In this document: positions 7,497-30,474 of the stretch, one piece after another
Position numbering within the stretch: position 1 is the stretch's first letter
Layout: each line of letters opens with the position of its first letter
NCBI GenBank assembly: GCA_002842395.1
Contig: PHCV01000002.1
Location: 1-64,000 of the forward strand
Source of the DNA: Betaproteobacteria bacterium HGW-Betaproteobacteria-11
GTDB lineage: Bacteria; Pseudomonadota; Gammaproteobacteria; Burkholderiales; Rhodocyclaceae
Reading direction: 5' to 3'
DNA length: 64,000 bases
Position numbers and translations under genes: made by a program
Notes under the pieces: model-generated
What the model was told of the DNA's origin: nothing
The model's input: the letters and a program-made list of their open reading frames with translations, nothing else
The model's database searches: none

Positions 7497-7500
<4 letters not shown>

Positions 7501-10804: not shown

Positions 10805-11262
10805 TGAACCGGATTGCCCCCCTGCTACCGCCCGCCAACGTGCTGGCGCACCTCGACGCCAGCAGCAAGAAGCGGGTCTTCGAACAGGCCGGGATCATGT
10901 TCGAAAACCACCAGCACCTCAGCCGCAGCGCCATCTTCGATGCGCTCTTCGCACGCGAGAAGCTGGGCTCCACCGGCCTCGGCCAGGGCATCGCCATCCC
11001 GCACGGGCGGATCAAGGGTCTCAAGGCCCCGCTCGGCGCCTTCATCCGGCTCGCTGTGCCGGTGCCGTTCGATGCCCCCGATGGCCAGCCGGTCAACCTG
11101 GTTTTCGTGCTCCTGGTGCCGGAGTCCGCCAACGAGCAGCATCTCCAGTTGCTTTCCGAACTGGCTCAGCTATTTTCCGATCGCGCCATGCGCGAGCGGC
11201 TGGCCGCCGCGCCTGACGCCACAACCCTGCATGAGCTATTCGTCAATTGGAACGCCAACTGA
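10804..11262 (+). CDS. ptsN: Nitrogen-regulatory PTS IIA protein (EIIANtr)
   Basis: 152 residues. Phosphocarrier end point of the regulatory PTS; controls potassium, nitrogen or stress functions rather than sugar uptake. Phospho-histidine is His67 in GIAIPHGRIKGL. The family N-terminus (NRIAPLLPPANVLAHLDASSKK) requires the TTG start at 10804; no ATG fits. This start lies in the right arm of the 15-bp inverted repeat. Upstream partners enzyme I, HPr and a mannose-type IIA are at 32.4-34.8 kb. Overlaps hprK by 16 bases. Confidence 0.93.
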   Translation: MNRIAPLLPPANVLAHLDASSKKRVFEQAGIMFENHQHLSRSAIFDALFAREKLGSTGLGQGIAIPHGRIKGLKAPLGAFIRLAVPVPFDAPDGQPVNLVFVLLVPESANEQHLQLLSELAQLFSDRAMRERLAAAPDATTLHELFVNWNAN

Positions 11263-12194
11263 TCGTCTCCCAGCTCTTCGAGCGCAATCGCGACCGGCTC
11301 AAGCTCGAGTGGGTCAGCGGGACGCTGACCCGGACCCTCTCGGCCGCCCAGGAATTCGTCGCCCCGGCGGATATCGTCGGCCACCTCAACCTGATGCACC
11401 CGGAACGCCTGCAGGTGATCGGCGCACCCGAACGCGACTGGTCGGCACGCCAGGCGCCGGAGCGGGTGGCGCGGCACATGCAGGACATTTTCAACGCCCG
11501 CCCGCCGGCACTTATCGTCGCCGACGGGCTGACGATTCCGGAGGCCGTCCGCCGCGGCTGCGAGGAGTCCGACACTCCGTTGTTCAGGACGCCACTGCCG
11601 GCGGCCTACGTGATCGACACACTGCGCCATTTCGTCGCTCGACAACTGGCCGAAACCACCACCCTGCACGGCGTTTTCATGGATGTGCTGGGCATGGGGG
11701 TGCTGATCACCGGCGACTCGGGCGCCGGCAAGAGCGAACTGGCGCTGGAACTGATTTCGCGCGGCCATGGCTTGGTCGCCGACGACGTGGTCGAGGTCTC
11801 GCGCATCGGCCTCGACCTGCTGGAAGGTCGCTGTCCCGATCTGTTGCGTGACTTTCTCGAGGTACGCGGCCTCGGCCTGATCAATATCCGCACGGTCTTC
11901 GGCGAGACCGCCTGCCGTCGCCGGATGCGTCTCAAGTTGATCGTCCATCTGCAAAAACCGCAGCCCGGCGTACCCGAGGCGGCGCGGCTGCCGCTCGATG
12001 CGCAAAGCGAAACCGTGCTCGGCGTGCCGGTGCGTCATGTCACCATCCCGGTGGCCGCCGGCCGCAACCTCGCGGTGCTGCTCGAGGCCGCAGTGCGGGT
12101 GACGATTCTCGGCCTGCGCGGCTTCGACAGCATGCAGGAATTTCTCGAGCGGCAGGAGCTGGCGATGGGCGCGGGAGAGGATGAAGTCAACTAA
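11247..12194 (+). CDS. hprK: HPr kinase/phosphorylase
   Basis: 315 residues. Phosphorylates and dephosphorylates HPr on Ser46 in response to metabolic state. TTG start (MERQLIVSQLFERN) inside the ptsN end. Walker A GDSGAGKSELAL at about residues 155-166, capping-type EVRGLGLINIRTVFGE block after it, and RRMRLKLIVHL. Its target Ser46 is conserved in the HPr encoded at 34114-34383. rapZ, which often follows hprK, is not present here. Confidence 0.96.
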   Translation: MERQLIVSQLFERNRDRLKLEWVSGTLTRTLSAAQEFVAPADIVGHLNLMHPERLQVIGAPERDWSARQAPERVARHMQDIFNARPPALIVADGLTIPEAVRRGCEESDTPLFRTPLPAAYVIDTLRHFVARQLAETTTLHGVFMDVLGMGVLITGDSGAGKSELALELISRGHGLVADDVVEVSRIGLDLLEGRCPDLLRDFLEVRGLGLINIRTVFGETACRRRMRLKLIVHLQKPQPGVPEAARLPLDAQSETVLGVPVRHVTIPVAAGRNLAVLLEAAVRVTILGLRGFDSMQEFLERQELAMGAGEDEVN

Positions 12195-12277
12195 CCTCCG
12201 TTCCGGGCGTTGATTGAGCACGGCGACCGCCGTGGCATATGTCATATTTCTTACTCATTTCGTTCAAGGAGAACACA

Positions 12278-12640
12278 ATGCAAAAACTGCTCGCCCTCGC
12301 CCTGGTTTCCCTGTTTACCACCCATGTGGCCCTGGCCCAGGTGCCGGCCAAGCCAGCGACCCCCGCCACCCCTGCCACGGCAGCCACTCCCGCCACACCG
12401 GCCGCTGCGTCCGGCGATTGCGCCTCCCGCGCCGTCAGCAAGACCGGCAAGCCGCTGGCCGGCGCCGCGAAATCCGCCTTCATGAAAAAGTGTGAACGCG
12501 AAAGTTCCTCCGCGGCCGAGGCCTCCTCCGCGCCCGCCGCCGGTTCGCAACAGAACAAGATGAAGACCTGCAACAAGGATGCCACCGGCAAGAAGGGTGC
12601 CGAGCGCAAGGCCTTCATGAAGGAATGCCTCTCGAAATAA
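12278..12640 (+). CDS. Small secreted protein with two PsiF repeats
   Basis: 120 residues. Cleavable signal peptide MQKLLALALVSLFTTHVALA, then a Pro/Ala/Thr-rich linker (about residues 24-44), then two PsiF-type motifs: DCASRAVSKTGKPLAGAAKSAFMKKC and KTCNKDATGKKGAERKAFMKECL, each with a Cys pair. PsiF of E. coli is phosphate-starvation inducible and of unknown role. Strong AAGGAG before the ATG; a terminator follows directly. Function not known. Confidence 0.85.
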   Translation: MQKLLALALVSLFTTHVALAQVPAKPATPATPATAATPATPAAASGDCASRAVSKTGKPLAGAAKSAFMKKCERESSSAAEASSAPAAGSQQNKMKTCNKDATGKKGAERKAFMKECLSK

Positions 12641-12666
12641 GTCGTCGCTGACACAAGGACGCGCGG

Positions 12667-12696
12667 CGCCGGCCCTGCCAGGGCCGGCGTTTTTTT
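12667..12696 (+). terminator. Rho-independent terminator
   Basis: Ten-bp GC stem CGCCGGCCCT / AGGGCCGGCG with a GCC loop, followed by seven T. Closes the psiF-like gene and the 1-12.7 kb plus-strand block. Confidence 0.92.
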
Positions 12697-12728
12697 GTCG
12701 TCGTTCCCGCATCCGCGAGAACGACGAC
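12697..12728. repeat. Palindrome between convergent genes
   Basis: GTCGTCGTTC (12697-12706) pairs perfectly with GAACGACGAC (12719-12728). It resembles a short member of the GTCATTCCCG palindrome family and lies just 3' of the minus-strand pyrophosphohydrolase. Confidence 0.6.
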
Positions 12729-12729
12729 A

Positions 12730-13098
12730 TCAGGCCTGACCCGTATCCCCTTGAGAATTCTGTTGTCGTACCGCCTGGTCGCCCGCCGGGTACTTGAGAG
12801 CGTTCTTGACGATTTTCTGCCGTGCCGCGGCAAGCATGTCGATCTGCAGCACGTCGGCCAGTTCGGTGAGATAGATCAGCACGTCGGCGATTTCGTCGGT
12901 GACGGCAGCGCGCTGCCCGGCAGAAAGCGACCGGCTTTCCTCCGGAGTCAGCCATTGAAACTGCTCGACCAGCTCGGCGGCTTCGACGATCAGCGCCATG
13001 ACCAGGTTTTTCGGCGTGTGGTAGCGAGGCCAGTCGCGCTCGGCGCAGAAGGCGTGCAACGCATCGCGCAGCGAACCGAGATCGGTAATTTCATTCAT
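12730..13098 (-). CDS. MazG-like nucleotide pyrophosphohydrolase
   Basis: 122 residues. Small all-helical NTP pyrophosphohydrolase of the MazG/dCTPase superfamily, likely a house-cleaning enzyme for non-canonical or excess nucleotides. The metal-binding pattern is present: EAAELVEQFQW (ExxE) and DEIADVLIYL (ExxD). Start chosen at MNEITDLGSL; an upstream alternative adds ten residues. The exact substrate cannot be told from sequence. Overlaps the VanZ-like gene by four bases. Confidence 0.88.
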   Translation of the reverse strand: MNEITDLGSLRDALHAFCAERDWPRYHTPKNLVMALIVEAAELVEQFQWLTPEESRSLSAGQRAAVTDEIADVLIYLTELADVLQIDMLAAARQKIVKNALKYPAGDQAVRQQNSQGDTGQA

Positions 13099-14138
13099 TC
13101 GACATTCCTTTCCTGCCAGACCAGCCAAGGCAGGGCAAGCCAGGGCCAGAGCGAAGCGACCAGGCGTGTGGCGCCGTGAAAATTGAGGAACTGTGCGGGA
13201 TTCCAGACGCTCAGGGTATTTTCAAGGTAGGGATTTTCCGGCGCCAGATTGACCATCACGGTAGCCACCAGAAGCGCCAGCGCCGCCAGCGCGCGTTGCC
13301 CCGTGGATGAAAGCAGGACAGCCAGCAGCCAGAGCGCGGCGCCGAGCAGCAGCCCGTGCAAACCGCCCGGCGTGGCCCAGACGAAGGCAGCTTGCGGCTG
13401 CATCATCAGGGCAAAGGCCAGGGCCTTGGCCAGCAGCCCGACGGCAAGGATACTCAGCGCAAAAAGTCGGCGCCGGCGAGACGGCGCCAACAGGCTGGCG
13501 ATCAGCAACACAGCCAGGCTGGCGGCGGCGGCGATCGCGGTTTCGACATGCTGGAAACTCTCGGCACTGAATTCGCCGGCGGCAGGCAGATCGACCAGCC
13601 GGCGCAAGTCGCCGGCGCCGAACAGCAGGGTGGTCGGGTCGAACTGGGTCAATAACCAGAGGCCGAGCAGCATCAGGCCGGCATCGGTACGGCCACCCTG
13701 CCCCGGCCAGTGGCTGTGGCGCAGATCGTCGATCAGGCGCGGGCCGAACGCCGCGCCGGGCCAGGCGCCAAGCGCGGTGCCGAGAACGTTGCCGGCCCAG
13801 TCGAGGTTGGAGGCGACACGGCTGGACAGATAGTTTTGCAGAAACTCCATGACAAACGAGAGCAATCCGGCGGCCAGCACGGCGAGCACCATGGCCGGCA
13901 GAGTGGCCGTGGCCCTGCGCCCGGCCGCGGCAAGGAGAAACCCCAGCGGCAGATAGGCCGCCAGATTGGTGAGCAGATCGAAGTTGGTGGTGTAGCGGGG
14001 CCAGCCGGCAAACACGAAAGCCAACGGATCGCCGCCGCTGTCATGCCATCCGCTTAGTGGATAGAGGCTGGCGTAGACGACGAGCAGCGCATAGCCAAGG
14101 GCAAGGTAGAGCGCCAGCGGAGTACGGCCTCGATTCAC
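13095..14138 (-). CDS. VanZ-like family membrane protein
   Basis: 347 residues, about nine hydrophobic segments. The N-terminal half carries the VanZ pattern: VVYASLYPLSGW, then DLLTNLAAYLPLGFLL and NLDWAGNVLGTALG. VanZ proteins have no firmly known activity; one gives low-level teicoplanin resistance. The C-terminal half is further membrane helices. A dispersed repeat encodes SRRRRLFA in a loop. Sits between the symporter and the MazG-like gene with overlapping starts and stops. Confidence 0.85.
   Translation of the reverse strand: MNRGRTPLALYLALGYALLVVYASLYPLSGWHDSGGDPLAFVFAGWPRYTTNFDLLTNLAAYLPLGFLLAAAGRRATATLPAMVLAVLAAGLLSFVMEFLQNYLSSRVASNLDWAGNVLGTALGAWPGAAFGPRLIDDLRHSHWPGQGGRTDAGLMLLGLWLLTQFDPTTLLFGAGDLRRLVDLPAAGEFSAESFQHVETAIAAAASLAVLLIASLLAPSRRRRLFALSILAVGLLAKALAFALMMQPQAAFVWATPGGLHGLLLGAALWLLAVLLSSTGQRALAALALLVATVMVNLAPENPYLENTLSVWNPAQFLNFHGATRLVASLWPWLALPWLVWQERNVE
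13461..13486 (-). repeat. 25-bp dispersed repeat, copy in the VanZ-like gene
   Basis: Reverse-strand copy with one change in the core (CGCCGGCGCCGACTTTTT). Identical over its length to the copy in hyfI at 29134-29159. Encodes RRRRLF. Confidence 0.82.
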
Positions 14139-15649
14139 GGTTGCGGGTGCGGATGTACCGGCTCGGTCACATGGTGGGTATGGAAGCTGGCGTGGTGCCC
14201 ATGGCGCAATTCATCATGGATCGCCGGATTATGGTGCATGGCCTGCGGCAGGAGCGAGCCGGCCACCATGCCAGCGGCGCTCATCAAAAGACCGGCGAAC
14301 TGTGCCGGAAGGATGAAATCCTCCGCTCCGGCGAGCAGCAGCGACAGCCAGGTGGCGAGGCCCGCGAAAATCGCCAGCGCCGCCCCCTGGTTGGTCGAGC
14401 GCCGCCAGTAGATGCCGCAAACGAGCGGCACGAAGGCGGTCACCAGGGTGATCTGGTAGGCGCTCTCGACCATCTTGAAAATGCTCGCCTTGGAATTGAT
14501 CGCATACAGCGTGACCACCAGGGTGAAGACGAGCGTCACGATGCGCATGGCGAGCAGCAGCTTGCGGTCGGAGAGCGGGTGGCCGGGACGGCCGAGTAGC
14601 GGTTTGAGGATGTTCTCGGTAAAGGTTACCGAAGGCGCCAGCAAGGTGGCCGAGGCGCAGCTCTTGATCGCCGAGAGCAGGGCGCCGAAGAACATCACCT
14701 GCGCCACCAGTGGGGCATGATCGAGTACCAGCCGCGGCAGGATCATCTGCGGATCGCTCGCCGCCAGTTCCTTGACCATCTGCGGCGCGATCAGGGTCGC
14801 CGAGTAGGCGAGGAACATCGGCACGAAGGCGAAGACGAAATACAGACTGCCGCCGAGGATCGAGCCCCAGACGGCGATTTTTTCGGTCTTTGCCGACTGC
14901 ACGCGCTGGAACACGTCCTGTTGCGGAATCGAACCGAACATCATGGTCACCCAGGCCGCGGTGAAGCCGATGACTTCCTTCAGATCGGGCGCCGGCCAGA
15001 ACTGGAACATCCCGGCCTGGGCGGCATGATCGACCACCACGCCGACACCGCCAGCCATGGCGGAGACCTCGCCGCCGATCCACAGCATGCCGATGACGAT
15101 GATGATCATCTGCAAGAAGTCGGTGATCGCCACCGCCCACATGCCGCCGAACAGGGTGTAAATGAGGATGGTCGAGGAACCGATCCACATCCCGGAGAGA
15201 CGGCTGATCTCGCCGCCGGAGACGACGTTGAAGACCAGGCCCAGCGCGGTGATCTGGGCGCCGACCCAGCCCAGGTAGGAAATCACGATGGCCAGCGTGG
15301 TCGCCACTTCGACGCCGCGGCCGAAACGCTTCTTGTAGAAGTCGCCGATGGTGAGCAGGTTCATCCGGTACAGCGGCGCGGCGAAGAAGATGCCGACCAG
15401 GATCAGGCACAGCGAGGAGCCGAAGGGATCGGCAACCACGCCATGCAGCCCTTCGGTGAGGAAGGTGGCGGGAATGCCGAGCACGGTCTCGGAGCCGAAC
15501 CAGGTGGCGAACACCGTGGCGGTGACCATGTAGAAAGGCAAATGACGGCCGGCGATGGCGAAGTCCCTGGTGTTATGCACGCGGGTGGCGGCGTAGAGGC
15601 CGATACCCACCGAAACCATCCAGTACACCATCACGAACCAGAACAGCAT
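14135..15649 (-). CDS. Sodium:solute symporter family transporter
   Basis: 504 residues, about thirteen hydrophobic segments with the SSS fold. N-terminal pattern TRVHNTRDFAIAGRHLPFYMV, then ATWFGSETVLGIPA and FYKKRFGRGVEVATTL are typical of this family; the C-terminal tail is His-rich (HHNPAIHDELRHGHHASFH). It imports an unidentified organic solute with sodium; no substrate gene is adjacent. Starts 15 bases from a dispersed-repeat copy and is followed by the VanZ-like gene with a four-base overlap. Confidence 0.88.
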   Translation of the reverse strand: MLFWFVMVYWMVSVGIGLYAATRVHNTRDFAIAGRHLPFYMVTATVFATWFGSETVLGIPATFLTEGLHGVVADPFGSSLCLILVGIFFAAPLYRMNLLTIGDFYKKRFGRGVEVATTLAIVISYLGWVGAQITALGLVFNVVSGGEISRLSGMWIGSSTILIYTLFGGMWAVAITDFLQMIIIVIGMLWIGGEVSAMAGGVGVVVDHAAQAGMFQFWPAPDLKEVIGFTAAWVTMMFGSIPQQDVFQRVQSAKTEKIAVWGSILGGSLYFVFAFVPMFLAYSATLIAPQMVKELAASDPQMILPRLVLDHAPLVAQVMFFGALLSAIKSCASATLLAPSVTFTENILKPLLGRPGHPLSDRKLLLAMRIVTLVFTLVVTLYAINSKASIFKMVESAYQITLVTAFVPLVCGIYWRRSTNQGAALAIFAGLATWLSLLLAGAEDFILPAQFAGLLMSAAGMVAGSLLPQAMHHNPAIHDELRHGHHASFHTHHVTEPVHPHPQP

Positions 15650-15663
15650 GACGGGCTTTCCTC

Positions 15664-15689
15664 AAAAAGTCGGCGCTGGCAATACGGCG
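15664..15689 (-). repeat. 25-bp dispersed repeat between ubiB and the symporter gene
   Basis: Exact 15-base core GCCAGCGCCGACTTT with a variant left side. It ends 14 bases before the symporter ATG, so it is in the leader of that gene. Confidence 0.82.
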
Positions 15690-15696
15690 AACAGCC

Positions 15697-17238
15697 TCAT
15701 CCGCGCCACAGGATCAACAAAAACAGGGCACAAAGCAGCGCGGAAATCAGCGCCAGGTAGCGGCGATTTTTCGCTTCCTCGGCGCGTAACGCAGCCAGTT
15801 CGGCGAGCAGCGCAGCGGAGCGTTCACCAGTCAGCGCCTGATGCATCAGGCGCGGCAAGGCCGGCAGAAAACCGGCCCATTGCGGCGCCTCGCGTTTCAG
15901 GTTGCGGACCAGGCCGCGCCAGCCGACCTGCTCGCTCATCCAGCGTTCGAGGAAGGGCTTGGCGGTCTGCCACAGGTCGAGGTCGGGATCGAGTTCGCGG
16001 CCGAGGCCCTCGATGTTGAGCAGGGTCTTTTGCAGCAGCACGAGTTGCGGCTGGACTTCGACATTGAAGCGGCGCGAGGTCTGGAACAGGCGCAGCAACA
16101 CGCGGCCGAAGGAAATCTCTTTCAGCGGCCGGTCGAAGATCGGCTCGCAGACGGCGCGGATGGCGGCCTCGAATTCATCGACGCGGGTGTCTTTCGGCGC
16201 CCAGCCGGATTCGATGTGGGCCTCGGCGACGCGCTTGTAATCGCGGCGGAAGAAGGCGAGGAAGTTCTGCGCCAGGTAACTCTTGTCGCTCTCGGTGAGC
16301 GTGCCGACAATGCCGAAATCGACCGCGATGTAGCGCCCTTTCACTGCCTCGTCGGTGGCAACGAAGATGTTGCCGGGGTGCATGTCGGCGTGAAAGAACC
16401 CGTCACGGAAGACCTGGGTGAAGAAAATTTCGACCCCGGCCCGCGCCAGGCGCGGAATATCGATGCCGGCTGCGCGCAGGGCGGCGGTCTGCGAAATCGG
16501 GATGCCATGCATCCTTTCCATGACCATCACGCTATGCGTACACCAGTCCCAATACACCTCGGGCACGATCAGCAGATCGGAACCGGCAAAATTGCGCCGC
16601 AGTTGCGAGCAGTTGGCGGCCTCGCGCATCAGGTCGAGCTCGTCGTGCAGATACTTGTCGAATTCCGCGACGACTTCCCGCGGCTTGAGCCGGCGGCCGT
16701 CGGCCCAGAGTTTTTCCAGCAGGGTGGCGGCAACCTGGAGCAGGGCGATGTCATGGTCGATCACCGGACGGATGCCGGGGCGGAGAATCTTCACCGCCAC
16801 CTCGCGGCCATCGGGCAGCACGGCGAAATGTACTTGGGCGACCGAGGCCGAAGCCACCGGCTCGACGCAGAATTCGGTGAAGACCTGATCGACCGGCTTG
16901 CCATAGGCCGCTTCCAGCTCGGCGAGGGCAAGGCGGGAGGCGAACGGCGGTACCTGATCCTGCAACTTCGCCAGTTCTTCGGCCAGATCAGCGGGCAACA
17001 GATCGCGGCGGGTAGACAGCACCTGGCCGAACTTGACGAAGATCGGCCCCAGCGCTTCCAGCGCCAGGCGCAGACGAACGGCACGCGGGGCGGAAAAGTC
17101 GCGCCAGAACATCAGCTTCTGCAAGGCAAGCAGCACACGCCCCCAGATGCCGAAGACCGACTCGTTGTCGAGGATCATCCGATCCAGGCCGTAGCGATAG
17201 GTGACGCAGGCGATGCGGAGCAGGCGGAAGAGGCGCAC
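15697..17238 (-). CDS. ubiB: UbiB, ubiquinone biosynthesis accessory ATPase (ABC1/ADCK family)
   Basis: About 513 residues from the GTG at 17238 ([21 protein letters not shown]), which matches the family N-terminus; a longer frame to 17316 would run into the argS leader. Atypical protein-kinase-like ATPase that supports ubiquinone synthesis. KxGQ motif [14 protein letters not shown] at about residues 69-82, AVKILRPGI, the catalytic [10 protein letters not shown] and DFGIVGTL are intact, and the C-terminus has a membrane anchor [15 protein letters not shown]. ubiM, a later pathway hydroxylase, is at 61 kb. Confidence 0.94.
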
Positions 17239-21209: not shown

Positions 21210-21213
21210 AAAC

Positions 21214-21551
21214 GATCAGTCGCCGCGCACCCGTTGTTCGATGTGGGCCAGCGCGGCTTCGATCTGGTCGATCAGGATCAGGCACAGATCGCCGCTTTCG
21301 ATCTGCTCCAGAGCGCGCTGGATAACCTGATCCGTGGCCGCACCACCATCGCCATCGCCCACCGGCTGTCCACCCTGCGCAGCGCCGACCGCCTGGTGGT
21401 GATGGATCATGGCAAGATCGTCGAGATCGGCCCGCACGACGAACTGCTCGCCCGGCAGACCGCCTACTGGCGCCTCTACATGGCACAGACCCAACAGCTC
21501 GACGCGCTCGAAGGACGCGGCGCGGAGGATGGGGAGGATCTGAATGAGTGA
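21214..21551 (+). pseudogene. C-terminal remnant of an ABC transporter next to DUF1854
   Basis: Only the last part of an exporter ATPase domain is left: [46 protein letters not shown]. The membrane domain, Walker A, signature and Walker B are all missing. The 75 bases before the homology read as a plausible tail of an unrelated minus-strand protein (ending IEQRVRGD), which suggests a deletion fused two neighbours. In other betaproteobacteria an intact transporter annotated as cyanophycin metabolism-associated precedes the DUF1854 gene. Stop overlaps the next gene by eight bases. Confidence 0.8.
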
Positions 21552-22047: not shown

Positions 22048-22266
22048 CTAGTCCGTGGCGTTGCCACCCTTGTCGGACATTGTCCCCGCACTGCTGCGCA
22101 GCCATTCCGGCAGTTCGCGGTCGCCGGCATGGTCGATGATGTATTGCCGCATCAGCTTGCGCACCACTTGCGAGATGGTCAGATCCTGACTGGCGCAGAT
22201 GTCCTCGAAGATTTTCTTTTTCTGCGGATCGAGCAGGATGGTCAGCCGGGCTGTTCTGTTTTCCAT
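22048..22266 (-). CDS. Ribbon-helix-helix (CopG/Arc-like) DNA-binding protein
   Basis: 72 residues. N-terminal beta strand TARLTILLD followed by two helices (KKKIFEDICASQDL and TISQVVRKLMRQYII) gives the RHH pattern of small dimeric repressors. No toxin gene is adjacent, so an antitoxin role is unlikely. It is divergent from the hyf-like operon across an AT-rich 130-bp gap and may regulate it; this is inferred from position only. Confidence 0.75.
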   Translation of the reverse strand: MENRTARLTILLDPQKKKIFEDICASQDLTISQVVRKLMRQYIIDHAGDRELPEWLRSSAGTMSDKGGNATD

Positions 22267-22396: not shown

Positions 22397-24418
22397 GTGA
22401 TCTTGGGCGGGTTATCCATCGACTGGGCGTTATTCGTCATTGCCGTCTGGCTGGTACTCGGGCTGCTCGGTCTCGCCGCCTTGCGCCGCTTCGAACTGGT
22501 CGCCCGGGTACTGTTTCCGCTCGGCGCCCTGGCTGGTCTGGTGCTGGCTTTCGCCGCGGTGCAGGGATTGCTGTCCACCCCCGAGGTCGCCGTCTTGCCG
22601 ATCGGCCTGCCGCAACTGCCTTTCCATCTGCGGCTCGATCCGCTGGCCGCTTTTTTCCTGTTTGTCATCGGCGCCGCCGGTTGCGGCATCTCGCTGTTCG
22701 CGGCCGGCTATTTCCGCAAGGGCGAGGGCACGCCGCCGGGATTGCTCTGTTTCGAGTATCACCTCTTCCTCGCCAGCATGGCGTTGGTGGTGCTGGCCGA
22801 CGATGCCTATGCCTTCATGGTGGCCTGGGAGAGCATGGCGCTCTCGTCCTACTTCCTGGTCACGACCAACCACAAGGTGCCGGAAATTCGCGCCGCGGGT
22901 TTCCTCTATCTGCTGATCGCGCATGTCGGCGCCATCGCCATCCTGCTCTGCTTCGGCGTTCTGCAGGCGAATACGGGGGATTACACGTTCGCCAACATGC
23001 GGATTCAGCAGCTCTCGCCATTCTGGGCCTCGGCGGCCTTCCTGCTGGCCGTGTTCGGCTTCGGCGCCAAGGCCGGGGTGCTGCCGCTGCATGTCTGGCT
23101 GCCCGAGGCGCACCCGGCGGCGCCTTCACCGGTCTCGGCGCTGATGAGCGGGGTGATGCTGAAGACCGCAATCTATGGCCTGCTGCGCGTCGGCTTCGAC
23201 CTGCTGCATCTGCAGCTCTGGTGGTGGGGCGTACTGCTGCTTGCGCTCGGCCTGGCCACGGCTCTGTTCGGCGTCGTCTTTGCCACGGTGCAGTCGGACA
23301 TGAAGCGCCTGCTGGCCTATTCCTCGATCGAGAACATCGGCCTGCTGCTCGCCGCGATCGGGCTGGCCCTGGTCTTTCGCGCTTACGGCATGACCGCGCT
23401 GGCCGCCCTGGCGCTCACCGCCTGCCTCTATCACGTCGCCAGTCACGCCTTTTTCAAGAGCCTGCTGTTTCTCACCACCGGCTCGGTGCTGCACGCCACC
23501 GGCGAACGCAATCTCGGTCATCTGGGCGGCCTGATGCGCTTCATGCCCTGGGTCGCCTGGCTGGCGCTGATCGGGGTATTCGCCAGTTCCGGCCTGCCAC
23601 CGTTTTCCGGCTTCGTCTCGGAATGGCTGCTGCTGCAAAGCTTCCTGTTCACCCCCGGGCTGCCCGATTCCTTCCTCAACATGCTGATTCCGCTCGCCGC
23701 GGCGGCGGTGGCGCTCACCGCGGCGCTCGCCGGTTATGCCATGGTCAAGTTCTTCGGGGTGATTTTTCTCGGTCAGCCACGCGAGGAAAAACTGCGCCAG
23801 GCGCATGATGCCGGCATGCAGGAAAAGGCCGGCATGCTCTGGCTGGCGGCCTGGTGCGTCGCCCTCGGCCTGCTGCCGAACCTGATGATCCGTTTCATCG
23901 ATCCGGTGACCGAGAAACTCGTCGGCCAGGGGCTGGCACAACAAGCGGCGGCCAACGGCTGGTGGCTGCTCACTCCCACCTCGATCGAGCGGGCGAGCTA
24001 CGGGCCGCTGTTCTTCCTGCTCGGCGTGGCGGCGGCCTGTGCGATTGCCTTCGTGCTGGTTCGCCTGTTCTATCACGGCCGCCTGCGCCGGGCCGCGCCC
24101 TGGGGCTGCGGCTACCCCTGGCTGACGCCGCGGATGCAGGACACCGCCGAAGGTTACGGGCAGCCGATCCGGCAGATTTTCGAACCCTTTTTCCGTCTCG
24201 AGCGGCAACTGCCCGCCCCGGCCGATCGCCAGCCGTTCTACCAGGTCATGGTCAGCGACCGCTTCTGGCATGGGGTATATCTGCCGATTGCCCGCGCCGT
24301 CGAGTTTCTCGCCGCGCTGGTCGGCCGCCTGCAGCAGGGGCGGATCGCGACCTATCTGCTCTACAGCTTCCTCACCCTGCTGTTCATGCTGCTGATGGTG
24401 CCGGGAGTGAAAAAATGA
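22397..24418 (+). CDS. HyfB-like proton-pumping membrane subunit (NuoL/M family)
   Basis: 673 residues, GTG start (MILGGLSIDWALFVIAVW). Antiporter-like subunit of hydrogenase-4/complex-I type complexes with about fifteen membrane helices. Visible: FMVAWESMALSSYFLV, FGFGAKAGVLPLHVWLPEAHPAAPSPVSALMSG with the proton-channel Lys and Glu, LAYSSIENIG and the C-terminal amphipathic region. First gene of a six-gene operon in the order hyfB-C-E-F-G-I; hyfD and the ferredoxin-like hyfA/hyfH are missing. Stop overlaps the next start (ATGA). Confidence 0.9.
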   Translation: MILGGLSIDWALFVIAVWLVLGLLGLAALRRFELVARVLFPLGALAGLVLAFAAVQGLLSTPEVAVLPIGLPQLPFHLRLDPLAAFFLFVIGAAGCGISLFAAGYFRKGEGTPPGLLCFEYHLFLASMALVVLADDAYAFMVAWESMALSSYFLVTTNHKVPEIRAAGFLYLLIAHVGAIAILLCFGVLQANTGDYTFANMRIQQLSPFWASAAFLLAVFGFGAKAGVLPLHVWLPEAHPAAPSPVSALMSGVMLKTAIYGLLRVGFDLLHLQLWWWGVLLLALGLATALFGVVFATVQSDMKRLLAYSSIENIGLLLAAIGLALVFRAYGMTALAALALTACLYHVASHAFFKSLLFLTTGSVLHATGERNLGHLGGLMRFMPWVAWLALIGVFASSGLPPFSGFVSEWLLLQSFLFTPGLPDSFLNMLIPLAAAAVALTAALAGYAMVKFFGVIFLGQPREEKLRQAHDAGMQEKAGMLWLAAWCVALGLLPNLMIRFIDPVTEKLVGQGLAQQAAANGWWLLTPTSIERASYGPLFFLLGVAAACAIAFVLVRLFYHGRLRRAAPWGCGYPWLTPRMQDTAEGYGQPIRQIFEPFFRLERQLPAPADRQPFYQVMVSDRFWHGVYLPIARAVEFLAALVGRLQQGRIATYLLYSFLTLLFMLLMVPGVKK

Positions 24419-25362
24419 GCCTGAGCAGCATCTTCTCGCAATTCCTGGCCATCGTCGCCGCGCTGCTGCTGGCCCCGCTGCTGATGGGCTGGGTGAACCA
24501 GTGGCGCGCCTGGTTCGGCAACCGTTCCGGCGCCGGCCTGCTGCAACCCTACCGCATGTTGCACAAGCTGTTCCACAAGGAATCGGTGGTGGCGGAGAGC
24601 GCCTCGCCCTTGTTCCGTTTCGCGCCCTACGTGATCTTCGGCTGCATGCTGCTGGCCAGCGCCATCGTGCCGACGCTGTCCACCGATCTGCCACTGGCTC
24701 CCGCCGCCGATGCAATCGCCCTGGTCGGCCTGTTCGCCCTGGCGCGGATCTTCATCTCGCTGGCCGCGATGGACATCGGCACCGCCTTCGGCACGCTGGG
24801 CGCGCGACGTGAAATGCTGATCGGATTCCTCGCCGAGCCGGCATTGCTCACCGTGTTGTTCACCGCCTCGCTGATCGGCCAGTCCACCTCCCTGTCCACC
24901 ATCGTCGAAACCCTGGCGCACAAACAATTCGCCATTCATCCGAGTCTCGCCTTCGCCGGCATCGCCTTCACCTTCGTCTCCTTCGCCGAGAACGCCCGGG
25001 TGCCGGTGGACAATCCGGCGACCCATCTCGAACTGACGATGATCCACGAAGCCCTGATCCTCGAATATTCGGGCCGCCACCTGGCACTGATCGAATGGGC
25101 CGCGGCCCTGAAGCTGTTCGCCTATTCCTGCATCGGCCTCGCCCTGTTCTTTCCCTGGGGCATCGCCGAAGCCCAGGCCCCGCTGGCAATGCTCTTCGCC
25201 CTGCCGGCGCTGGTCTTCAAACTGGCCACCGGCGGCTTCCTGCTCGCCCTGATCGAAACCCTCTCGGCCAAGATGCGCATCTTTCGCGTCCCCGAATTCC
25301 TCGCCACCGCCTTCCTGCTGGCGGTGATCGGCATGCTCACGCATATCCTGCTCGGGGCCTGA
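24415..25362 (+). CDS. HyfC-like membrane subunit (NuoH/HycD family)
   Basis: 315 residues, eight hydrophobic segments. Start at MSLSSIFSQFLAIVAALLLA after GGGAGTG. Quinone-site family subunit that docks the hydrophilic arm: QPYRMLHKLFHKE, GTAFGTLGARREMLIGFLAEPALL and RVPVDNPATHLELTMIHEA are the conserved NuoH/HycD blocks, with the glutamates retained. Overlaps hyfB by four bases; hyfE follows after three. Confidence 0.93.
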   Translation: MSLSSIFSQFLAIVAALLLAPLLMGWVNQWRAWFGNRSGAGLLQPYRMLHKLFHKESVVAESASPLFRFAPYVIFGCMLLASAIVPTLSTDLPLAPAADAIALVGLFALARIFISLAAMDIGTAFGTLGARREMLIGFLAEPALLTVLFTASLIGQSTSLSTIVETLAHKQFAIHPSLAFAGIAFTFVSFAENARVPVDNPATHLELTMIHEALILEYSGRHLALIEWAAALKLFAYSCIGLALFFPWGIAEAQAPLAMLFALPALVFKLATGGFLLALIETLSAKMRIFRVPEFLATAFLLAVIGMLTHILLGA

Positions 25363-25365
25363 ACC

Positions 25366-26025
25366 ATGACCACGCTGATCTCCCAGCTCATCAATCTGTT
25401 CGCCGCGGTGATTCTGATGCTCTCGTTCGCCATGCTGGCGCAGCGGCGCATCCTCAGCCTGATCCACCTGTTCGCCCTGCAGGGGCTGGCGGTGGTCGGC
25501 GCCACCACGGTGGTGGCCTACGTCACCGACCAACACCACCTATACTACTCGGCGGCGCTGACCCTGGCGCTCAAGGTGTTCCTGATTCCCTGGCTGCTGC
25601 ATCGCCTGATCGACCGCCTCAACGTCCGCTGGGACATCGAAACCCTGATCAACATTCCCAGCACCATGCTGATCGGCATCGTGCTGGTGGTCTTCGCCTT
25701 CAACCTGGCGCTGCCGATCTCCCAGCTCTCCGCCGCCATCACCCGCGGCACGCTGGGCATCGCCCTGGCCAGCGTGCTGCTCTCCTTCATGATGATGATC
25801 ATCCGCTCCAAGGCGGTGCCGCAGGTGATCGGTTTCTTGGCGATGGAAAACGGCCTGTTCTTCGCCGCCACCTCGGCCACCCACGGCATGCCGATGGTGG
25901 TCGAGCTGGGCATCGCGCTCGATGTGCTAGTCGGTGTCTTCATCCTCGGCGTGTTCATGTTCCAGATCCGTGAACAGTTCGACAGCCTGGACATCCGCCA
26001 TCTCGAAAATCTGAAAGAAGACTGA
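25366..26025 (+). CDS. HyfE-like membrane subunit (NuoK-related)
   Basis: 219 residues, about seven hydrophobic segments. Resembles HyfE/HycC-linked NuoK-type subunits: RRILSLIHLFALQGLAV, then SFMMMIIRSKAVPQVIGFLAMENGLFFAA with the membrane glutamate. Stop and next start overlap (TGATG). A NuoJ/K-like role in the membrane arm is inferred. Confidence 0.88.
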   Translation: MTTLISQLINLFAAVILMLSFAMLAQRRILSLIHLFALQGLAVVGATTVVAYVTDQHHLYYSAALTLALKVFLIPWLLHRLIDRLNVRWDIETLINIPSTMLIGIVLVVFAFNLALPISQLSAAITRGTLGIALASVLLSFMMMIIRSKAVPQVIGFLAMENGLFFAATSATHGMPMVVELGIALDVLVGVFILGVFMFQIREQFDSLDIRHLENLKED

Positions 26026-27479
26026 TGAGCGCCCTGGTCCTGGTTTTTGCCATTCCCCTCGCCGGCGCCCTGGTGCTGGCCCTGATCGGGCACCGGCCGC
26101 AGGCGCGTAACGTCAATGTCATTTTCAGCCTCGGCACCCTGCTGGCCGCCGCCTTGCTCACCGCGCAGATCATCGCCAGCGGCCCCCTGTTCGCGCTCGA
26201 GCGGCAGTTTTTCATCGACCCGCTCAATGTCTTCCTGGTCACCCTGACCGCCTTCGTCGGGTTCACCACCTCGGTCTTTTCGCGGCCCTACATGCGCATC
26301 GAGGAAGACCACGGCAGGATGACGCCAGGCCGCATGCGGCTCTATTTCAGCATGTACCAGCTGTTTTCCTTCACCATGCTGCTGGCGCTGACCACCAACA
26401 ACATGGGCATCCTCTGGGTGGCGATGGAAGCGGCGACGCTGACCACGGTGATGCTGGTATCGATCTACCGCACCCCGGCCAGCCTCGAGGCCGCCTGGAA
26501 ATACTTCATCCTCTGCGGCGTCGGCATCGCCCAGGCGCTGTTCGGCACCATCCTGCTCTACATGGCCGCGCAGCGGGTCATCGGCGAGGGTGCCAACGCC
26601 CTGTTGTGGACCAACCTCGACGCGGCGAAGAGCCAGCTCGATCCCGCCATCATGGCCCTGGCCTTCGTCTTTCTTTTCATCGGCTATGGCACCAAGGTTG
26701 GTCTGGTGCCGCTGCACAACTGGTTGCCGGATGCCCACGCCGAAGGCCCGACGCCGATCTCCGCGGTGCTCTCGGGCCTCTTGCTGAACGTCGCGCTGTA
26801 TGCCGTGATTCGCTGCAAGGTACTGACCGACGGCGCCCTCGGCAACCACTTCGCCAGCCAACTGATGATCGGCTTCGGTCTTCTCTCGGTGGTTGCCGCC
26901 GCCTTCTTCCTGTCCCGCCAGAAGGATGTCAAACGCATGTTCTCGTATTCGTCGATCGAGCACATGGGGTTGATGACCTTCGCCTTCGGCATAGGCGGGC
27001 CGATTGCCAATTTCGCCGGCCTGTTGCACATGACGGTGCATTCCCTGGTCAAGTCGGCGATCTTCTTCGCCGTCGGCCATGCCGCACAGAAGGCCGGGAC
27101 GCAGCTCATGGAAAACATCCGCGGCCTGATCAAGGTCAGCCCCACCGTCGGCTGGGGCCTGATGCTGGGCACGCTGGCCATCCTCGGCATGCCGCCGTTC
27201 GGCATCTTCGCCAGCGAGTTCCTGATTCTCACCAGCGCCATGCGCCAGGTGCCGTGGGCCACGCCCCTGCTGCTGCTCGGCCTGGGCATCGCCTTTGCCG
27301 CGATTTTCAGTCGCGTCCAGCCGATGGTCTTCGGCCAGACCAGCGCCAAGCCGCTAGCCCATTCGCCGGCCCTGTTACCGGTATTCACCCATCTTGGGCT
27401 GGGCCTGATGCTGGGTTTCTACATTCCGCCCTATCTGGACGCCTGGTATCGACAGGCCGCCCGGATCATCGGCGGTTGA
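26025..27479 (+). CDS. HyfF-like proton-pumping membrane subunit (NuoN/M family)
   Basis: 484 residues, about fourteen membrane helices. Antiporter-like subunit: WVAMEAATLTTVMLVSIYRT, YGTKVGLVPLHNWLPDAHAEGPTPISAVLSG and MFSYSSIEHMGLM are the conserved blocks with channel Lys and Glu residues. Together with the HyfB-like subunit it gives the complex two putative ion channels. Four bases before hyfG. Confidence 0.92.
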   Translation: MSALVLVFAIPLAGALVLALIGHRPQARNVNVIFSLGTLLAAALLTAQIIASGPLFALERQFFIDPLNVFLVTLTAFVGFTTSVFSRPYMRIEEDHGRMTPGRMRLYFSMYQLFSFTMLLALTTNNMGILWVAMEAATLTTVMLVSIYRTPASLEAAWKYFILCGVGIAQALFGTILLYMAAQRVIGEGANALLWTNLDAAKSQLDPAIMALAFVFLFIGYGTKVGLVPLHNWLPDAHAEGPTPISAVLSGLLLNVALYAVIRCKVLTDGALGNHFASQLMIGFGLLSVVAAAFFLSRQKDVKRMFSYSSIEHMGLMTFAFGIGGPIANFAGLLHMTVHSLVKSAIFFAVGHAAQKAGTQLMENIRGLIKVSPTVGWGLMLGTLAILGMPPFGIFASEFLILTSAMRQVPWATPLLLLGLGIAFAAIFSRVQPMVFGQTSAKPLAHSPALLPVFTHLGLGLMLGFYIPPYLDAWYRQAARIIGG

Positions 27480-27483
27480 GCAA

Positions 27484-29064
27484 ATGAAGATCGCCAGCCT
27501 CGATCTCGCGGTGCACCGCCTGCCCACGCCCTTCCCGCTGCTTCATGGCGAGGTTCGCGTCAGCGAATGGTCGGCGGCCGCGCTGGCCATCGCCGAAGCG
27601 CACGGACGCCTTGTTTCGCTCTGGGGCCGCGACGACCGGCGCGGCGAGTCCGGTCACTTCGTGATGTCCGCCGTCTATGCACTCACCGGCGGGACCCTGG
27701 TCTGGCTCGACCTGCCCCTGCTCAGCCGCGAGGAAAGCTATCCCGGGCTCGCCGACATATATCCTTATGTCATTCGACAGCAGCGCGCCGTGGCCGATCT
27801 GCTCGGCCTGGCCGCCACCGGCGAGAGCGAGGAACATGCCGATAGCCGCCCATGGCTGGCGCACGGCGCCTGGTCGGCGGACTATTTCCCCCTGCGTCGC
27901 GAAGCCGGCGAGCGCACATCCGGTGAATGGCCATCGGCCAGCGACTACCCGTTCGTCGCCGTGGCCGGCGATGGCGTACATGAAATCGCGGTCGGTCCGG
28001 TGCATGCCGGCATCATCGAACCGGGGCACTTCCGCTTTTCCGTGGTCGGCGAAAAAGTCCTCCGCCTGGAACAGCGACTGGGCTATGTCCACAAGGGCAT
28101 CGACCAGCGCTTCCAGTCGCTGCCGGCCAGCGAAGGCTACCGGCTGGCCGGCCGCGTCTCCGGCGATTCGACGGTGGCCTGCGCCTGGGCCTATTGCATG
28201 GCGCTGGAAGCGGCCTGGAAGCTACCGGTGCCGCCTCGCGCGGTGTGGCTGCGGGCGCTGCTGCTGGAGCGCGAACGCATCGCCAATCACCTCGGCGATC
28301 TCGGTGCGCTGGGCAACGATGCCGCCTTCGCCTTCGGCCTGGCGCAGTTCATGCGCCTCAAGGAAGACTGGCTGCGACTGAACAAGGCGCTGTTCGGCCA
28401 TCGCTATCTGATGGATGTCGTCGTTCCCGGCGGCATCGCCGGCGATATCGATGCGAACGGCATCGAAGGTCTGCTTGCCCAATGTGTCGCAATCGAGGCC
28501 GGAATACGCGAGCTGCATGACATCTACGACGAACATGCCGGCCTGCAGGATCGTTTCCTTACCACCGGCCGCGTCACCACGGAGCAGGCGATGGCGCTCG
28601 GCCTCACCGGCCTTGCCGGCCGCGCCAGCGGCATCGCCCGCGATGTGCGCCTCAACTTTCCGGCGCCGCCCTATACGGAACTGGAATTCACCCTCGCCTG
28701 CAAGAGCGGCGGCGATGTCGCCGCGCGGGTGGCGGTGCGCTTTGACGAGGTTTTCGAATCCTTGCGCCTGATCCGTCAGATCCTGCGCCGCCTGCCGTCC
28801 GGCATGGTGCGCGAAGAACTGCCTTCACTGCTGGAAAACGAGCGACCGGGGGGCATCGGTGCCGGCTGGATCGAGGGCTGGCGCGGCGAGATTTTCGTCG
28901 CCCTGACGCTCGCGCCAGGCAACCGTATCGCCCGCTGCCATTGCCATGATCCCTCCTGGCAGAACTGGCCCGTACTGGAACATGCGGTGATCGGCAACAT
29001 CGTGCCCGACTTTCCGCTGATCAACAAATCCTTCAATCTCAGTTACTCGGGGCATGACCGCTGA
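27484..29064 (+). CDS. HyfG-like large subunit without nickel ligands (NuoCD-type)
   Basis: 526 residues. N-terminal NuoC-like part (to about residue 170) and NuoD/hydrogenase large-subunit part starting VGPVHAGIIEPGHFRF, GYVHKGIDQRF. In [NiFe] hydrogenases the metal sits on RxCGxC and DPCxxC. Here the first motif is R224-V-S226-G-D-S229 and the last is NLSYSGHDR (residues 518-526), so all four cysteines are replaced by Ser, Ser, Ser and Gly. The protein ends exactly after this motif, with no maturation tail. It therefore cannot be a nickel hydrogenase; the pattern fits energy-converting hydrogenase-related (Ehr) complexes of unknown substrate. Confidence 0.88.
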   Translation: MKIASLDLAVHRLPTPFPLLHGEVRVSEWSAAALAIAEAHGRLVSLWGRDDRRGESGHFVMSAVYALTGGTLVWLDLPLLSREESYPGLADIYPYVIRQQRAVADLLGLAATGESEEHADSRPWLAHGAWSADYFPLRREAGERTSGEWPSASDYPFVAVAGDGVHEIAVGPVHAGIIEPGHFRFSVVGEKVLRLEQRLGYVHKGIDQRFQSLPASEGYRLAGRVSGDSTVACAWAYCMALEAAWKLPVPPRAVWLRALLLERERIANHLGDLGALGNDAAFAFGLAQFMRLKEDWLRLNKALFGHRYLMDVVVPGGIAGDIDANGIEGLLAQCVAIEAGIRELHDIYDEHAGLQDRFLTTGRVTTEQAMALGLTGLAGRASGIARDVRLNFPAPPYTELEFTLACKSGGDVAARVAVRFDEVFESLRLIRQILRRLPSGMVREELPSLLENERPGGIGAGWIEGWRGEIFVALTLAPGNRIARCHCHDPSWQNWPVLEHAVIGNIVPDFPLINKSFNLSYSGHDR

Positions 29065-29615
29065 TGTGGAAGATCCTTGGGCGCATCGCCAAAACCGGCA
29101 TCGCGACGGAAGCGCCACCCGCTGCCGCCGCCCAAAAAGTCGGCGCCGGCGAGACGGCGAGCGTGCCGCGCCTGCACCAGGAAATCCTCGACATCCTCGG
29201 CCGCGCGCTGACCATTCGCGCGGTTGACGCCGGCAGCTGCAACGGCTGCGAGCTGGAGCTCAACGCCCTCAACAACATCTATTACAACCTCGAAGGCCTC
29301 GGCATCAAGTTCGTCGCCAGCCCGCGCCATGCCGACCTGTTGCTGGTCAGCGGCCCGGTGACGCGCAACATGGTGCTAGCCGTGCAGCAGACTTATGCGG
29401 CAATGCCGGCACCCAAGCTGGTGGTGGCGCTCGGTGCCTGCGCCATCGATGGCGGCATCTTCGGCGCAAATTACGCCACGCTCGGCGGCCTCGCGCCGGT
29501 ATTGCCGGTCGATCACGTGATTCCCGGCTGCCCGCCGGAACCGGTGGATATCCTCGCCGGCATCCTCGACGTGGTGCGCCGGCGGCTCCCGCCGGAAAGC
29601 GTCCCGCATGTCTGA
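29064..29615 (+). CDS. HyfI-like small subunit with [4Fe-4S] site (NuoB family)
   Basis: 183 residues. NuoB/HycG-type subunit next to the quinone site. Cluster ligands are intact: Cys59 and Cys62 in GSCNGCELE, Cys126 in GACAIDGG and Cys156 in PGCPPEP. So the complex keeps an electron-transfer cluster although the large subunit lacks nickel ligands. N-terminal linker residues about 24-32 (QKVGAGETA) are encoded by an antisense dispersed repeat. Start overlaps the hyfG stop by one base. Confidence 0.92.
   Translation: MWKILGRIAKTGIATEAPPAAAAQKVGAGETASVPRLHQEILDILGRALTIRAVDAGSCNGCELELNALNNIYYNLEGLGIKFVASPRHADLLLVSGPVTRNMVLAVQQTYAAMPAPKLVVALGACAIDGGIFGANYATLGGLAPVLPVDHVIPGCPPEPVDILAGILDVVRRRLPPESVPHV
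29134..29159 (-). repeat. 25-bp dispersed repeat, copy in hyfI
   Basis: Antisense to the gene, identical to the copy at 13461-13486. Read in the gene's frame it gives KVGAGETA. Shows that the element is tolerated in both orientations inside coding sequence. Confidence 0.85.
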
Positions 29616-30474
29616 CACGGGCTCGCGCAGCGCCCTGTTGCGCTACATCGAGGGTGAGCTTTCCCAGTTGCCCGAGACGCACCCCGGCCACCCGTTCGTC
29701 AGCCGCAACCGGGGGCGCCTAAGCCTGCATTTCGACTATCTGGCGATCCAGAGCGAAATGCGGCTCGACACGCCCGAAGCGCTGGCGCTCGGCTACACCC
29801 GAACCATGATGGGGTTCCTGCTGTTTCAGCCGCAACCCGCAGAGATTTTGATGATCGGTCTCGGCGGCGGTTCGCTGGCCAAATATTGCCGGCGTCACCT
29901 GCCCGCCACGCGCTTCACCGCGATCGAGGTCAACCCGGCGATTCTCGAATTTCGCCAGGCCTTTCAGATTCCGGACGATGGGCCGAACTTTCGCGTCATC
30001 ATCGCTGACGGCGCCGATTACCTGCGCCGCGAGGTCGACCGCACGGCAGACGTGCTGCTGCTGGATGGTTTCGACGGCCATTCGCCGCCGCCACAACTGT
30101 GCACCGCGGAGTTCTACGCCGACTGCCATGCCTGCCTGAGCGATGACGGTGTCCTGGTCGCCAACTTCTGGAGCGGCGATCGCGACAGTGCGCGGCATCT
30201 GGCGCGGCTACGGGAATGTTTCGCTGGCCAGGTGCTGCCGATCGATGCCTGCGAACCGGGCAACAAGATCGTTTTCGCCGGCAAGGGCCGCGACTTTCCG
30301 CCCGCGGCGGAGAGGCTGCTGGCGCGCGCCGTCGAGCCCGATCCGCAGCATCCGATTCGGCTCCATGCCACGGCGCGCAAGCTGCTCAGGCAATTGCGTC
30401 AGATGCCCGTCCGCAGTCGCGAATCACGCGCCGATCGCGCCGGGTGCCGTACAATCCCCCCATCGCTCTGTTGA
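29608..30474 (+). CDS. Spermidine synthase-like (SpeE-fold) methyltransferase-family protein
   Basis: 288 residues. Rossmann fold of the polyamine synthase family: ILMIGLGGGSLAKYCRRHLP (nucleotide loop), FTAIEVNPAILEFRQAF, ADVLLLDGFDGHSPP and GVLVANFWS. The catalytic Asp region of true spermidine synthases (DS-DP) reads LDGFDGHS, so aminopropyl transfer is uncertain. The last 25 residues are basic and may be poorly conserved. Overlaps the end of hyfI by eight bases, which suggests co-transcription with the Ehr-like complex. Confidence 0.78.
   Translation: MSDTGSRSALLRYIEGELSQLPETHPGHPFVSRNRGRLSLHFDYLAIQSEMRLDTPEALALGYTRTMMGFLLFQPQPAEILMIGLGGGSLAKYCRRHLPATRFTAIEVNPAILEFRQAFQIPDDGPNFRVIIADGADYLRREVDRTADVLLLDGFDGHSPPPQLCTAEFYADCHACLSDDGVLVANFWSGDRDSARHLARLRECFAGQVLPIDACEPGNKIVFAGKGRDFPPAAERLLARAVEPDPQHPIRLHATARKLLRQLRQMPVRSRESRADRAGCRTIPPSLC

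Follow-up and report, generated by a model that had tools for sequence, protein, structure and literature searches.

The hyfBCEFGI operon at positions 22397-29615 of a 64,000-nucleotide stretch of contig PHCV01000002.1 from Betaproteobacteria bacterium HGW-Betaproteobacteria-11 (the whole stretch is referred to here as the window) encodes homologues of hydrogenase-4 subunits. Our analyses suggest, with a probability of roughly 0.5, that its product is a six-subunit, nickel-free, complex-I-like ion pump of the Ehr kind, driven by redox chemistry through one iron-sulfur cluster and serving inorganic-carbon supply in some autotrophs. Six-gene hyfBCEFGI sets without a ferredoxin-like subunit are already known as an unexplained kind of complex, of which the window holds a further example. 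What is new here is the spread of carbon genes beside the operon, together with its spermidine-synthase-like (SpeE-like) and small ribbon-helix-helix (RHH) partners.

The former nickel site lies in the large subunit, HyfG. At the positions held by four cysteines in E. coli HycE and HyfG, window HyfG has S226, S229, S520, and G523, and the motifs read RVSGDS against RVCGIC and NLSYSG against DPCYSC, just as an earlier reading of the sequence (the original prediction) had claimed for its RxCGxC and DPCxxC motifs. Neither of the two CxxC nickel motifs of [NiFe] group 4 hydrogenases is present. All four cysteines occur together in only 4 of 157 aligned rows (E. coli HycE, E. coli HyfG, and loci L062 and L195), and among the 140 rows of the window's own family 128 have no ligand cysteine and 12 have one. 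Across these 140 rows, position 226 is S in 119, C in 10, A in 10, and V in 1; position 229 is S in 122, T in 15, A in 2, and C in 1; and position 520 is S in 116, A in 13, N in 8, and C in 1, with two gaps. D228 is D in all 140; of the 138 rows without a gap at position 489, 137 have D. Since the ligand positions vary while these aspartates are invariant or nearly so, the former [NiFe] pocket has been rebuilt around conserved GDS, DPSW, and NLSYSG motifs, not just broken, and its residues are unlike a conserved metal site. HycE carries a C-terminal extension for maturation cleavage; window HyfG, judged by its sequence, ends three residues past NLSYSG and has no such extension.

Two other accounts of these residues were rejected. 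The HxH pair H486/H488 does not form a universal metal site, as each position is His in 105 of 140 family rows and is thus replaced in about one quarter of them, mostly by F/Y and R, respectively. Sequencing error cannot lie behind the ligand changes because identical motif states recur across the clade.

An AlphaFold model of HyfG (mean predicted local distance difference test score, 82) finds its nearest fold in the Protein Data Bank in the large subunit of E. coli formate hydrogenlyase (FHL; 7z0s_E, template modelling score 0.83), with complex I next; a sequence search of the structure database gave E 2.4e-52 for E. coli FHL versus 3.5e-23 for 6u8y_L. Confidence is low at residues 156-160, 169-182, 190-204, and 503-526, perhaps through the absence of HyfI from the model, and because these stretches include the C-terminal motif, the model cannot show what fills the pocket.

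In a quick LG+G4 tree of 155 HyfG rows, window HyfG falls in a 140-row nickel-free clade (Shimodaira-Hasegawa-like approximate likelihood ratio test, 100) that excludes E. coli HycE, E. coli HyfG, and the cysteine-bearing L062 and L195. The rows include 154 distinct sequences, as L047 and L083 are identical and one genome may therefore be counted twice; the tree omits L196 and L197, and L198, with fewer than 350 residues, was dropped from the alignment. A place inside active [NiFe] group 4, the finding that the original prediction had named as speaking against it, did not turn up: window HyfG lies outside and does not branch with active group-4 large subunits, of which the tree holds four cysteine-bearing rows. 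Tree and motifs agree with its view of a complex-I relative without nickel ligands that is not a hydrogenase. Its description of the ligands as "lost" is misleading, because the nickel-free state is conserved across the 140-row clade and, counting the window's own genome, 21 of the 61 that were searched have a close HyfG (identity 53-74% outside the window). The clade adjoins two smaller nickel-free clades, at a join that carries long-branch warnings. One of these (L185, L187-L191) has RVSGVG/GLTIAG-like motifs and, at some loci, a ferredoxin-like subunit, and the other (L186, L188, L192-L194) has RFSGNA/GLSVAE-like motifs; L188 carries one copy of each, back to back.

The small subunit and the membrane arm keep the residues on which an ion-pumping complex of this type would depend, as had been predicted. 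None of the four HyfI cysteines is substituted in 120 family rows: C59, C62, and C126 are present in all of them, and C156 in 119, with one gap. HyfB E145, K225, H232, H239, and E409 are invariant in 114 of 114 family rows and shared with E. coli HyfB, and HyfF E135 and K224 are found in all 131 family rows and E398 in 130, all three shared with E. coli HyfF. The membrane arm (HyfB, C, E, and F) thus retains charged ion-path residues, and the sequence shows one [4Fe-4S] cluster site, in HyfI.

No further cluster-bearing subunit was recognised. A motif scan found no HyfH/HycF-type two-cluster subunit in the window operon or within 3 kb of it, and hyfG and hyfI are at most 293 bases apart in the 134 family loci with both genes, which leaves no room for a hyfH gene there (675 bases in L062, a genuine Hyf hydrogenase); the predicted lack of a ferredoxin-like HyfH therefore stands. 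Outside the operon, a predicted gene with a single CxxCxxCxxxC motif lies within 3 kb in 2 of 140 family loci (L044, L074), and a raw six-frame scan adds a multi-motif frame in L134 and single, chance-like motifs in other loci. The L134 frame encodes 115 residues on the strand of the operon, with three CxxCxxCxxxC-type motifs, and is possibly ferredoxin-like or cysteine-rich. Neither an NADH module nor NuoI was found in the operon by eye among its open reading frames or by motif scan, and no counterparts of E. coli hyf A, D, H, and J were seen there.

The operon is intact and conserved, and its genes appear to be under purifying selection. Ratios of nonsynonymous to synonymous substitution rates (dN/dS), relative to the sole operon-bearing congener (G007), are 0.05-0.10 for the membrane genes, 0.25 for hyfG, and 0.19 for hyfI. 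G007 and the window share an identical layout between the RHH and SpeE-like genes, both included, and 117 of 140 family loci have the full BCEFGI order. All six genes lie on one strand, with neighbours overlapping or a few bases apart. Pfam models match five of them (hyfE is the exception) and NCBIfam models all six, and the models matched are those of complex-I or hydrogenase-4 subunit families (Table 1).

Table 1. Operon genes, adjoining genes, and HyfG motifs in the window
Feature	Position	Strand	Evidence
hyfB, NuoL/antiporter-like membrane subunit	22397..24418	+	NCBIfam NF005086, 929 bits
hyfC, NuoH-like membrane subunit	24415..25362	+	PF00146, E 4e-34
hyfE, membrane subunit	25366..26025	+	NF008556, 87 bits (cut-off 136 not reached); no Pfam match
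hyfF, NuoM/N-like membrane subunit	26025..27479	+	NF005045, 903 bits
hyfG, fused NuoC-NuoD-like large subunit without nickel ligands	27484..29064	+	PF00346, E 1.8e-37; PF00329, E 5e-5
HyfG R224-S229 (RVSGDS), former RxCGxC motif	28153..28170	+	alignment with E. coli HycE and HyfG
HyfG H486-W492 (HCHDPSW)	28939..28959	+	family alignment
HyfG N518-G523 (NLSYSG), former DPCxxC motif	29035..29052	+	alignment with E. coli HycE and HyfG
hyfI, NuoB-like small subunit, four [4Fe-4S] cysteines	29064..29615	+	PF01058, E 8.5e-30
SpeE-like gene	29608..30474	+	PF01564, E 9e-9; NF003380, 233 bits (cut-off 304 not reached)
Small RHH_9 gene, divergent, likely regulator	22048..22266	-	Pfam PF19839, E 1.7e-37

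The extent given by the original prediction covers the six hyf genes correctly, and the operon is longer: the SpeE-like gene overlaps hyfI by 8 bases and is a seventh operon gene. No maturation genes were recognised by eye among the open reading frames of 14-38 kb, as predicted for the vicinity; HypF/HypE-like genes are found elsewhere in the genome, on contig C10 (L003, about 6000-16700), beside a separate HoxFUYH-like [NiFe] hydrogenase (PF00374 matches; names assigned by eye), so any H2 metabolism could do without the hyf operon. The genome also encodes complex I separately, on contig C1. No structured RNA was found near the operon at the gathering threshold (20-32 kb of the window searched). 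Upstream, at window positions 21210-21551 and directly after a BtuF-like gene, lies an ABC-transporter-ATPase-like C-terminal part of about 105 residues, followed by a DUF1854 gene; the missing front part reflects either a deletion or an assembly join.

Close relatives of the operon are widespread. At E 1e-60, 53 of the 370 genomes in a class-wide sample have a match, or 52 without G191, which has a sister-clade copy only. By record title or name, carriers include Accumulibacter, Rhodoferax, Thiobacillus, Gallionella, Thiomonas, Paraburkholderia, Thiorhodococcus, Sulfuritalea, Rhizobium, and Burkholderia, as well as metagenome-assembled genomes (MAGs) titled Leptospirillum and Nitrospirae, and the operon lies on plasmids or megaplasmids in Cupriavidus, Rhizobium, and Azospirillum. 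Of 572 confirmed stretches in named genomes, the best 80 were kept as loci, and most of these extend about 2.9 kb upstream of hyfB. Gene context is limited by contig ends, and neighbourhoods were taken for 40 of the 53 operon-bearing class genomes, from codon-position-filtered open reading frames, by which genes with weak codon bias may be missed.

Recurrent neighbours of the operon are a SpeE-like protein and a small RHH or XRE regulator. Among 15 neighbour clusters with at least four family rows within 3 kb, ranked with no cluster singled out beforehand, RHH comes first (28 rows, 21 changes on the tree), followed by SpeE-like (18 rows, 13 changes), SulP (14 and 11), and metG (13 and 10); such parsimony changes cannot tell gain from loss. 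Within 2 kb, RHH homologues are found in 33 of 140 family rows and SpeE-like genes in 19. One Variovorax plasmid (L205) has two genes annotated "fused MFS/spermidine synthase", one on each side of its hyf operon, a further tie between that family and the complex. The partner left unnamed in the original prediction is thereby narrowed to the SpeE-like protein and an RHH or XRE regulator and, at some loci, to SulP, carbonic anhydrases (CAs), and RuBisCO.

These carbon genes recur beside the operon in part of the family. In dedicated searches, 18 of 140 rows had SulP, or its STAS part, no further than 3 kb away (12 tree changes), and 6 of 140 had RuBisCO within 7.5 kb (6 tree changes); SulP, a gamma-type CA, a CsoSCA-like CA, or RuBisCO lies within 7.5 kb in 23 of 140 (16 tree changes). 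In a MAG titled Thiobacillus denitrificans (L092), hyf is preceded by SulP, a gamma-type CA, and an RHH gene and followed by a SpeE-like gene, a second RHH gene, and then cbbO, cbbQ, cbbS, and cbbL. In L132, titled Thiomonas, cbbM lies 258 bases past hyf, followed by cbbQ and cbbO. L051 has SulP upstream of hyf, and a CsoSCA-like CA, CbbR, cbbL, and cbbQ downstream, while L102 has the order SulP-hyf-CsoSCA-like; the CsoSCA-like gene is at most 330 bases downstream of hyf in L102 and L162. The CsoSCA-like protein scores above the Pfam threshold for the catalytic domain of carboxysome carbonic anhydrase (E 2.5e-7), with CxDxR and H...C seen by eye. The gamma-type CA is a hexapeptide-repeat protein with three histidines spaced as we take to be usual for gamma-CA, and the cbb genes were named by their similarity between loci and by sequence features that we presume to be diagnostic; RuBisCO in the genomes searched was confirmed by Pfam. 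A possible inorganic-carbon island surrounds L051 (contig C13 of its genome, about 84-110 kb), where some 26 kb contain three SulP genes, hyf, the CsoSCA-like CA, and a gene for the RuBisCO large subunit.

Proximity of this kind exceeds chance expectation. In 5 of 21 operon-bearing relatives, a SulP gene sits no more than 10 kb from the operon, where copy number and genome size predict 0.30 such cases (P 7e-6). For RuBisCO at up to 7.5 kb, the count is 4 among the 38 genomes with operon and RuBisCO, where 0.41 are predicted (P 7e-4). The RuBisCO test draws on 26 of the 27 class genomes with operon and RuBisCO (G423, with RuBisCO about 29 kb away, was left out), and both tests ignore kinship, use hand-counted copy numbers with split pieces merged, and keep loci cut by contig ends.

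Several observations weigh against a general carbon role. Four of the five SulP genomes (G009, G018, G027, and G031) belong to one 10-row subclade, and sulfate transporters are mentioned among the SulP families in the relevant part of PMC10880623. RuBisCO is about as frequent in class genomes with the operon as in those without it (27/53 versus 156/317, p 0.88; without G191, 27/52 operon-bearing versus 156/318 operon-free genomes, p 0.77), and among 61 relatives RuBisCO is found in 12/21 operon-bearing versus 12/40 operon-free genomes (p 0.055), a contrast that reaches 12/21 versus 10/40 (p 0.024) by a post hoc cut of two weak RuBisCO-like operon-free matches. The hyf and DAB pumps do not exclude each other (DAB in 8/27 versus 58/156 class genomes, p 0.52), which leaves the idea of hyf as a substitute for DAB unsupported. 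Genome searches found no RuBisCO in the window genome and no SulP at E 1e-40, and its sole PF00484 beta-CA lies at window positions 63193-63645 on the minus strand, 33 kb from the operon. The operon is found in only one of eight congeners (G007), two of the eight being 82% and 60% complete. Moreover, metG, presumably unrelated, adjoins the operon almost as often as SulP (13 versus 14 rows); although it was not chosen in advance as a control, its recurrence (10 changes versus 11 for SulP) suggests that part of the neighbour recurrence may be inherited gene order. We found no proposal of a carbon role for a nickel-free complex in the portions of open-licence PMC literature consulted. On the strength of the counter-evidence from RuBisCO, DAB, SulP, metG, and the window genome, carbon supply is treated here as a role in some lineages.

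Given this composition, a redox-coupled ion pump with a single cluster would be the natural reading, with donor and acceptor that we infer as follows. A soluble one-electron carrier, ferredoxin- or flavodoxin-like, would dock on HyfI in the usual place of HyfH or NuoI, and electrons would pass through the HyfI cluster to an acceptor in the rebuilt HyfG pocket, quinone being our first guess. The energy of this transfer would drive H+ or Na+ through the membrane arm, reversibly; a two-electron H+ or Na+ pump, as originally predicted, is plausible. The general role would be in membrane energetics or redox balance, with the SpeE-like protein as a frequent accessory of the complex. The carbon genes beside the operon in some carbon-fixing relatives suggest a connection with carbon supply that can be put to the test: some of the autotrophic relatives may use the gradient to take up bicarbonate or CO2 for RuBisCO.

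Among described systems, Ehr (energy-converting hydrogenase-related) complexes come closest. In the pertinent passages of PMC6349859, PMC10284858, and PMC6728331, the last citing Marreiros et al. 2013, Ehr denotes relatives of group 4 that lack the NiFe-holding residues and whose function is undetermined, and PMC6349859 also takes in complexes proposed to pair with formate dehydrogenase. Ehr complexes (PMC10284858, PMC6349859) and the hyfBCEFGI clusters of Cupriavidus metallidurans CH34, C. necator H16, Acidithiobacillus ferrooxidans, and Nitrospira (PMC2864759, PMC7735108, PMC5596200) share with the window complex-I-like subunits and the absence of nickel ligands, and the clusters also the same six gene letters. 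The window shows two marks of Ehr, a group-4-homologous large subunit without metal-coordinating residues and complex-I-type membrane subunits, antiporter-like ones included. The window clade differs in having no HyfH-like subunit and its own motifs, GDS, DPSW, and NLSYSG. The Ehr class of the original prediction fits by composition and missing ligands, the tree itself being one without reference Ehr sequences (Geobacter, Mycobacterium). Of the published clusters, the one compared with the window is that of C. metallidurans CH34, whose megaplasmid HyfG is 58% identical to that of the window. Published views of hyfBCEFGI, each from part of its source, vary: an operon that lacks genes and has very little likelihood of supporting growth as a lithotroph in C. 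metallidurans CH34 and, as H16_A2196-A2201, in C. necator H16 (PMC2864759), a non-hydrogenase in A. ferrooxidans (PMC7735108), a putative group-4 hydrogenase in Nitrospira (PMC5596200), and, as hyfBCEFG, an H2-evolving hydrogenase adjoining a beta-CA in A. caldus (PMC3826726).

E. coli FHL and hydrogenase-4 (HycE, HyfG) provide the closest solved structure and homologous subunits, but the window complex has neither nickel ligands nor counterparts of A, D, H, and J and belongs to a separate clade. Respiratory complex I shares NuoB, C, D, H, L, and M/N-like parts and ion-path residues, whereas the window operon lacks the NADH module and NuoI. DAB and NDH-1MS, described in part of PMC13144422 as serving carbon uptake with complex-I-type membrane subunits, resemble the hyf family in that a subset of its loci adjoins carbon genes, a link of gene context only. 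They differ in that the window genome has no DabA-like gene and no Cup subunit was recognised in it, CupA/CupB not having been searched for.

A dedicated inorganic-carbon pump like NDH-1MS or DAB is the strongest rival to the redox-driven ion pump set out above, although we consider it unlikely. In such a pump, HyfI electron flow or membrane potential alone would drive CO2 hydration or bicarbonate accumulation, with SulP and CAs as partners, which would account for the neighbourhoods at L092, L132, L051, and L102 and for the beta-CA beside the A. caldus operon in the part of PMC3826726 that describes it. However, no CupA/DabA-like subunit was seen in the operon, the replacements at H486 and H488 (F/Y and R, in about a quarter of rows each) leave no conserved metal triad, 25 of 52 class carriers, the window genome included, have no RuBisCO, the class sample shows no genome-level RuBisCO association and no DAB exclusion, and SulP may carry sulfate. 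Slightly more doubtful still is the generalised proposal that proteobacteria use the hyfBCEFGI complex, so far unrecognised in this role, to accumulate inorganic carbon at the expense of redox energy or membrane potential. It would then be the third system for this purpose to derive from complex I, after NDH-1MS and DAB, and would feed RuBisCO together with SulP and CAs and, in heterotrophs such as the window's organism, other carboxylations.

A reductase for sulfane sulfur or another soluble acceptor, reducing its substrate near the HyfI cluster like Pyrococcus furiosus MBS, seems improbable. The similarity to 6u8y_L ("NADH dehydrogenase subunit D", E 3.5e-23), which we take to be the MBS large subunit, and the presence of the operon in presumed sulfur-oxidiser genera (Thiobacillus, Thiorhodococcus, and Sulfuritalea) point in its direction, but E. 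coli FHL is far closer (2.4e-52), Rhizobium, Burkholderia, and Paraburkholderia are also carriers, and none of the 15 ranked neighbour clusters holds a sulfur gene recognisable by eye. That the complex is still a hydrogenase, with serine and aspartate as metal ligands, would suit the serines at three of four ligand positions in the window and the invariant D228 (140/140), yet it is very hard to reconcile with the variation at these positions (226 S/C/A/V, 229 S/T/A/C, 520 S/A/N/C) and with a HyfG that ends three residues past the motif without a maturation extension. Least credible is a hydrogenase-4 in the course of decay: none of the four ligands remains, NCBIfam subunit names still read "hydrogenase 4", and the operon is patchy in the genus, but we reject decay on the low dN/dS of all six genes, the conserved replacement motifs, and a gene order that 117 of 140 family loci share.

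The family is common (52 of 370 class genomes), yet NCBIfam models still name its subunits hydrogenase 4, and claims of H2 metabolism can thus be inflated. As a minimal complex-I relative with one predicted cluster and no input subunit, the nickel-free Hyf complex would be a simple system in which to study ion pumping driven by electron transfer. The carbon link, if true, would give this clade a testable physiological role and add a further part to carbon concentration in chemoautotrophs.

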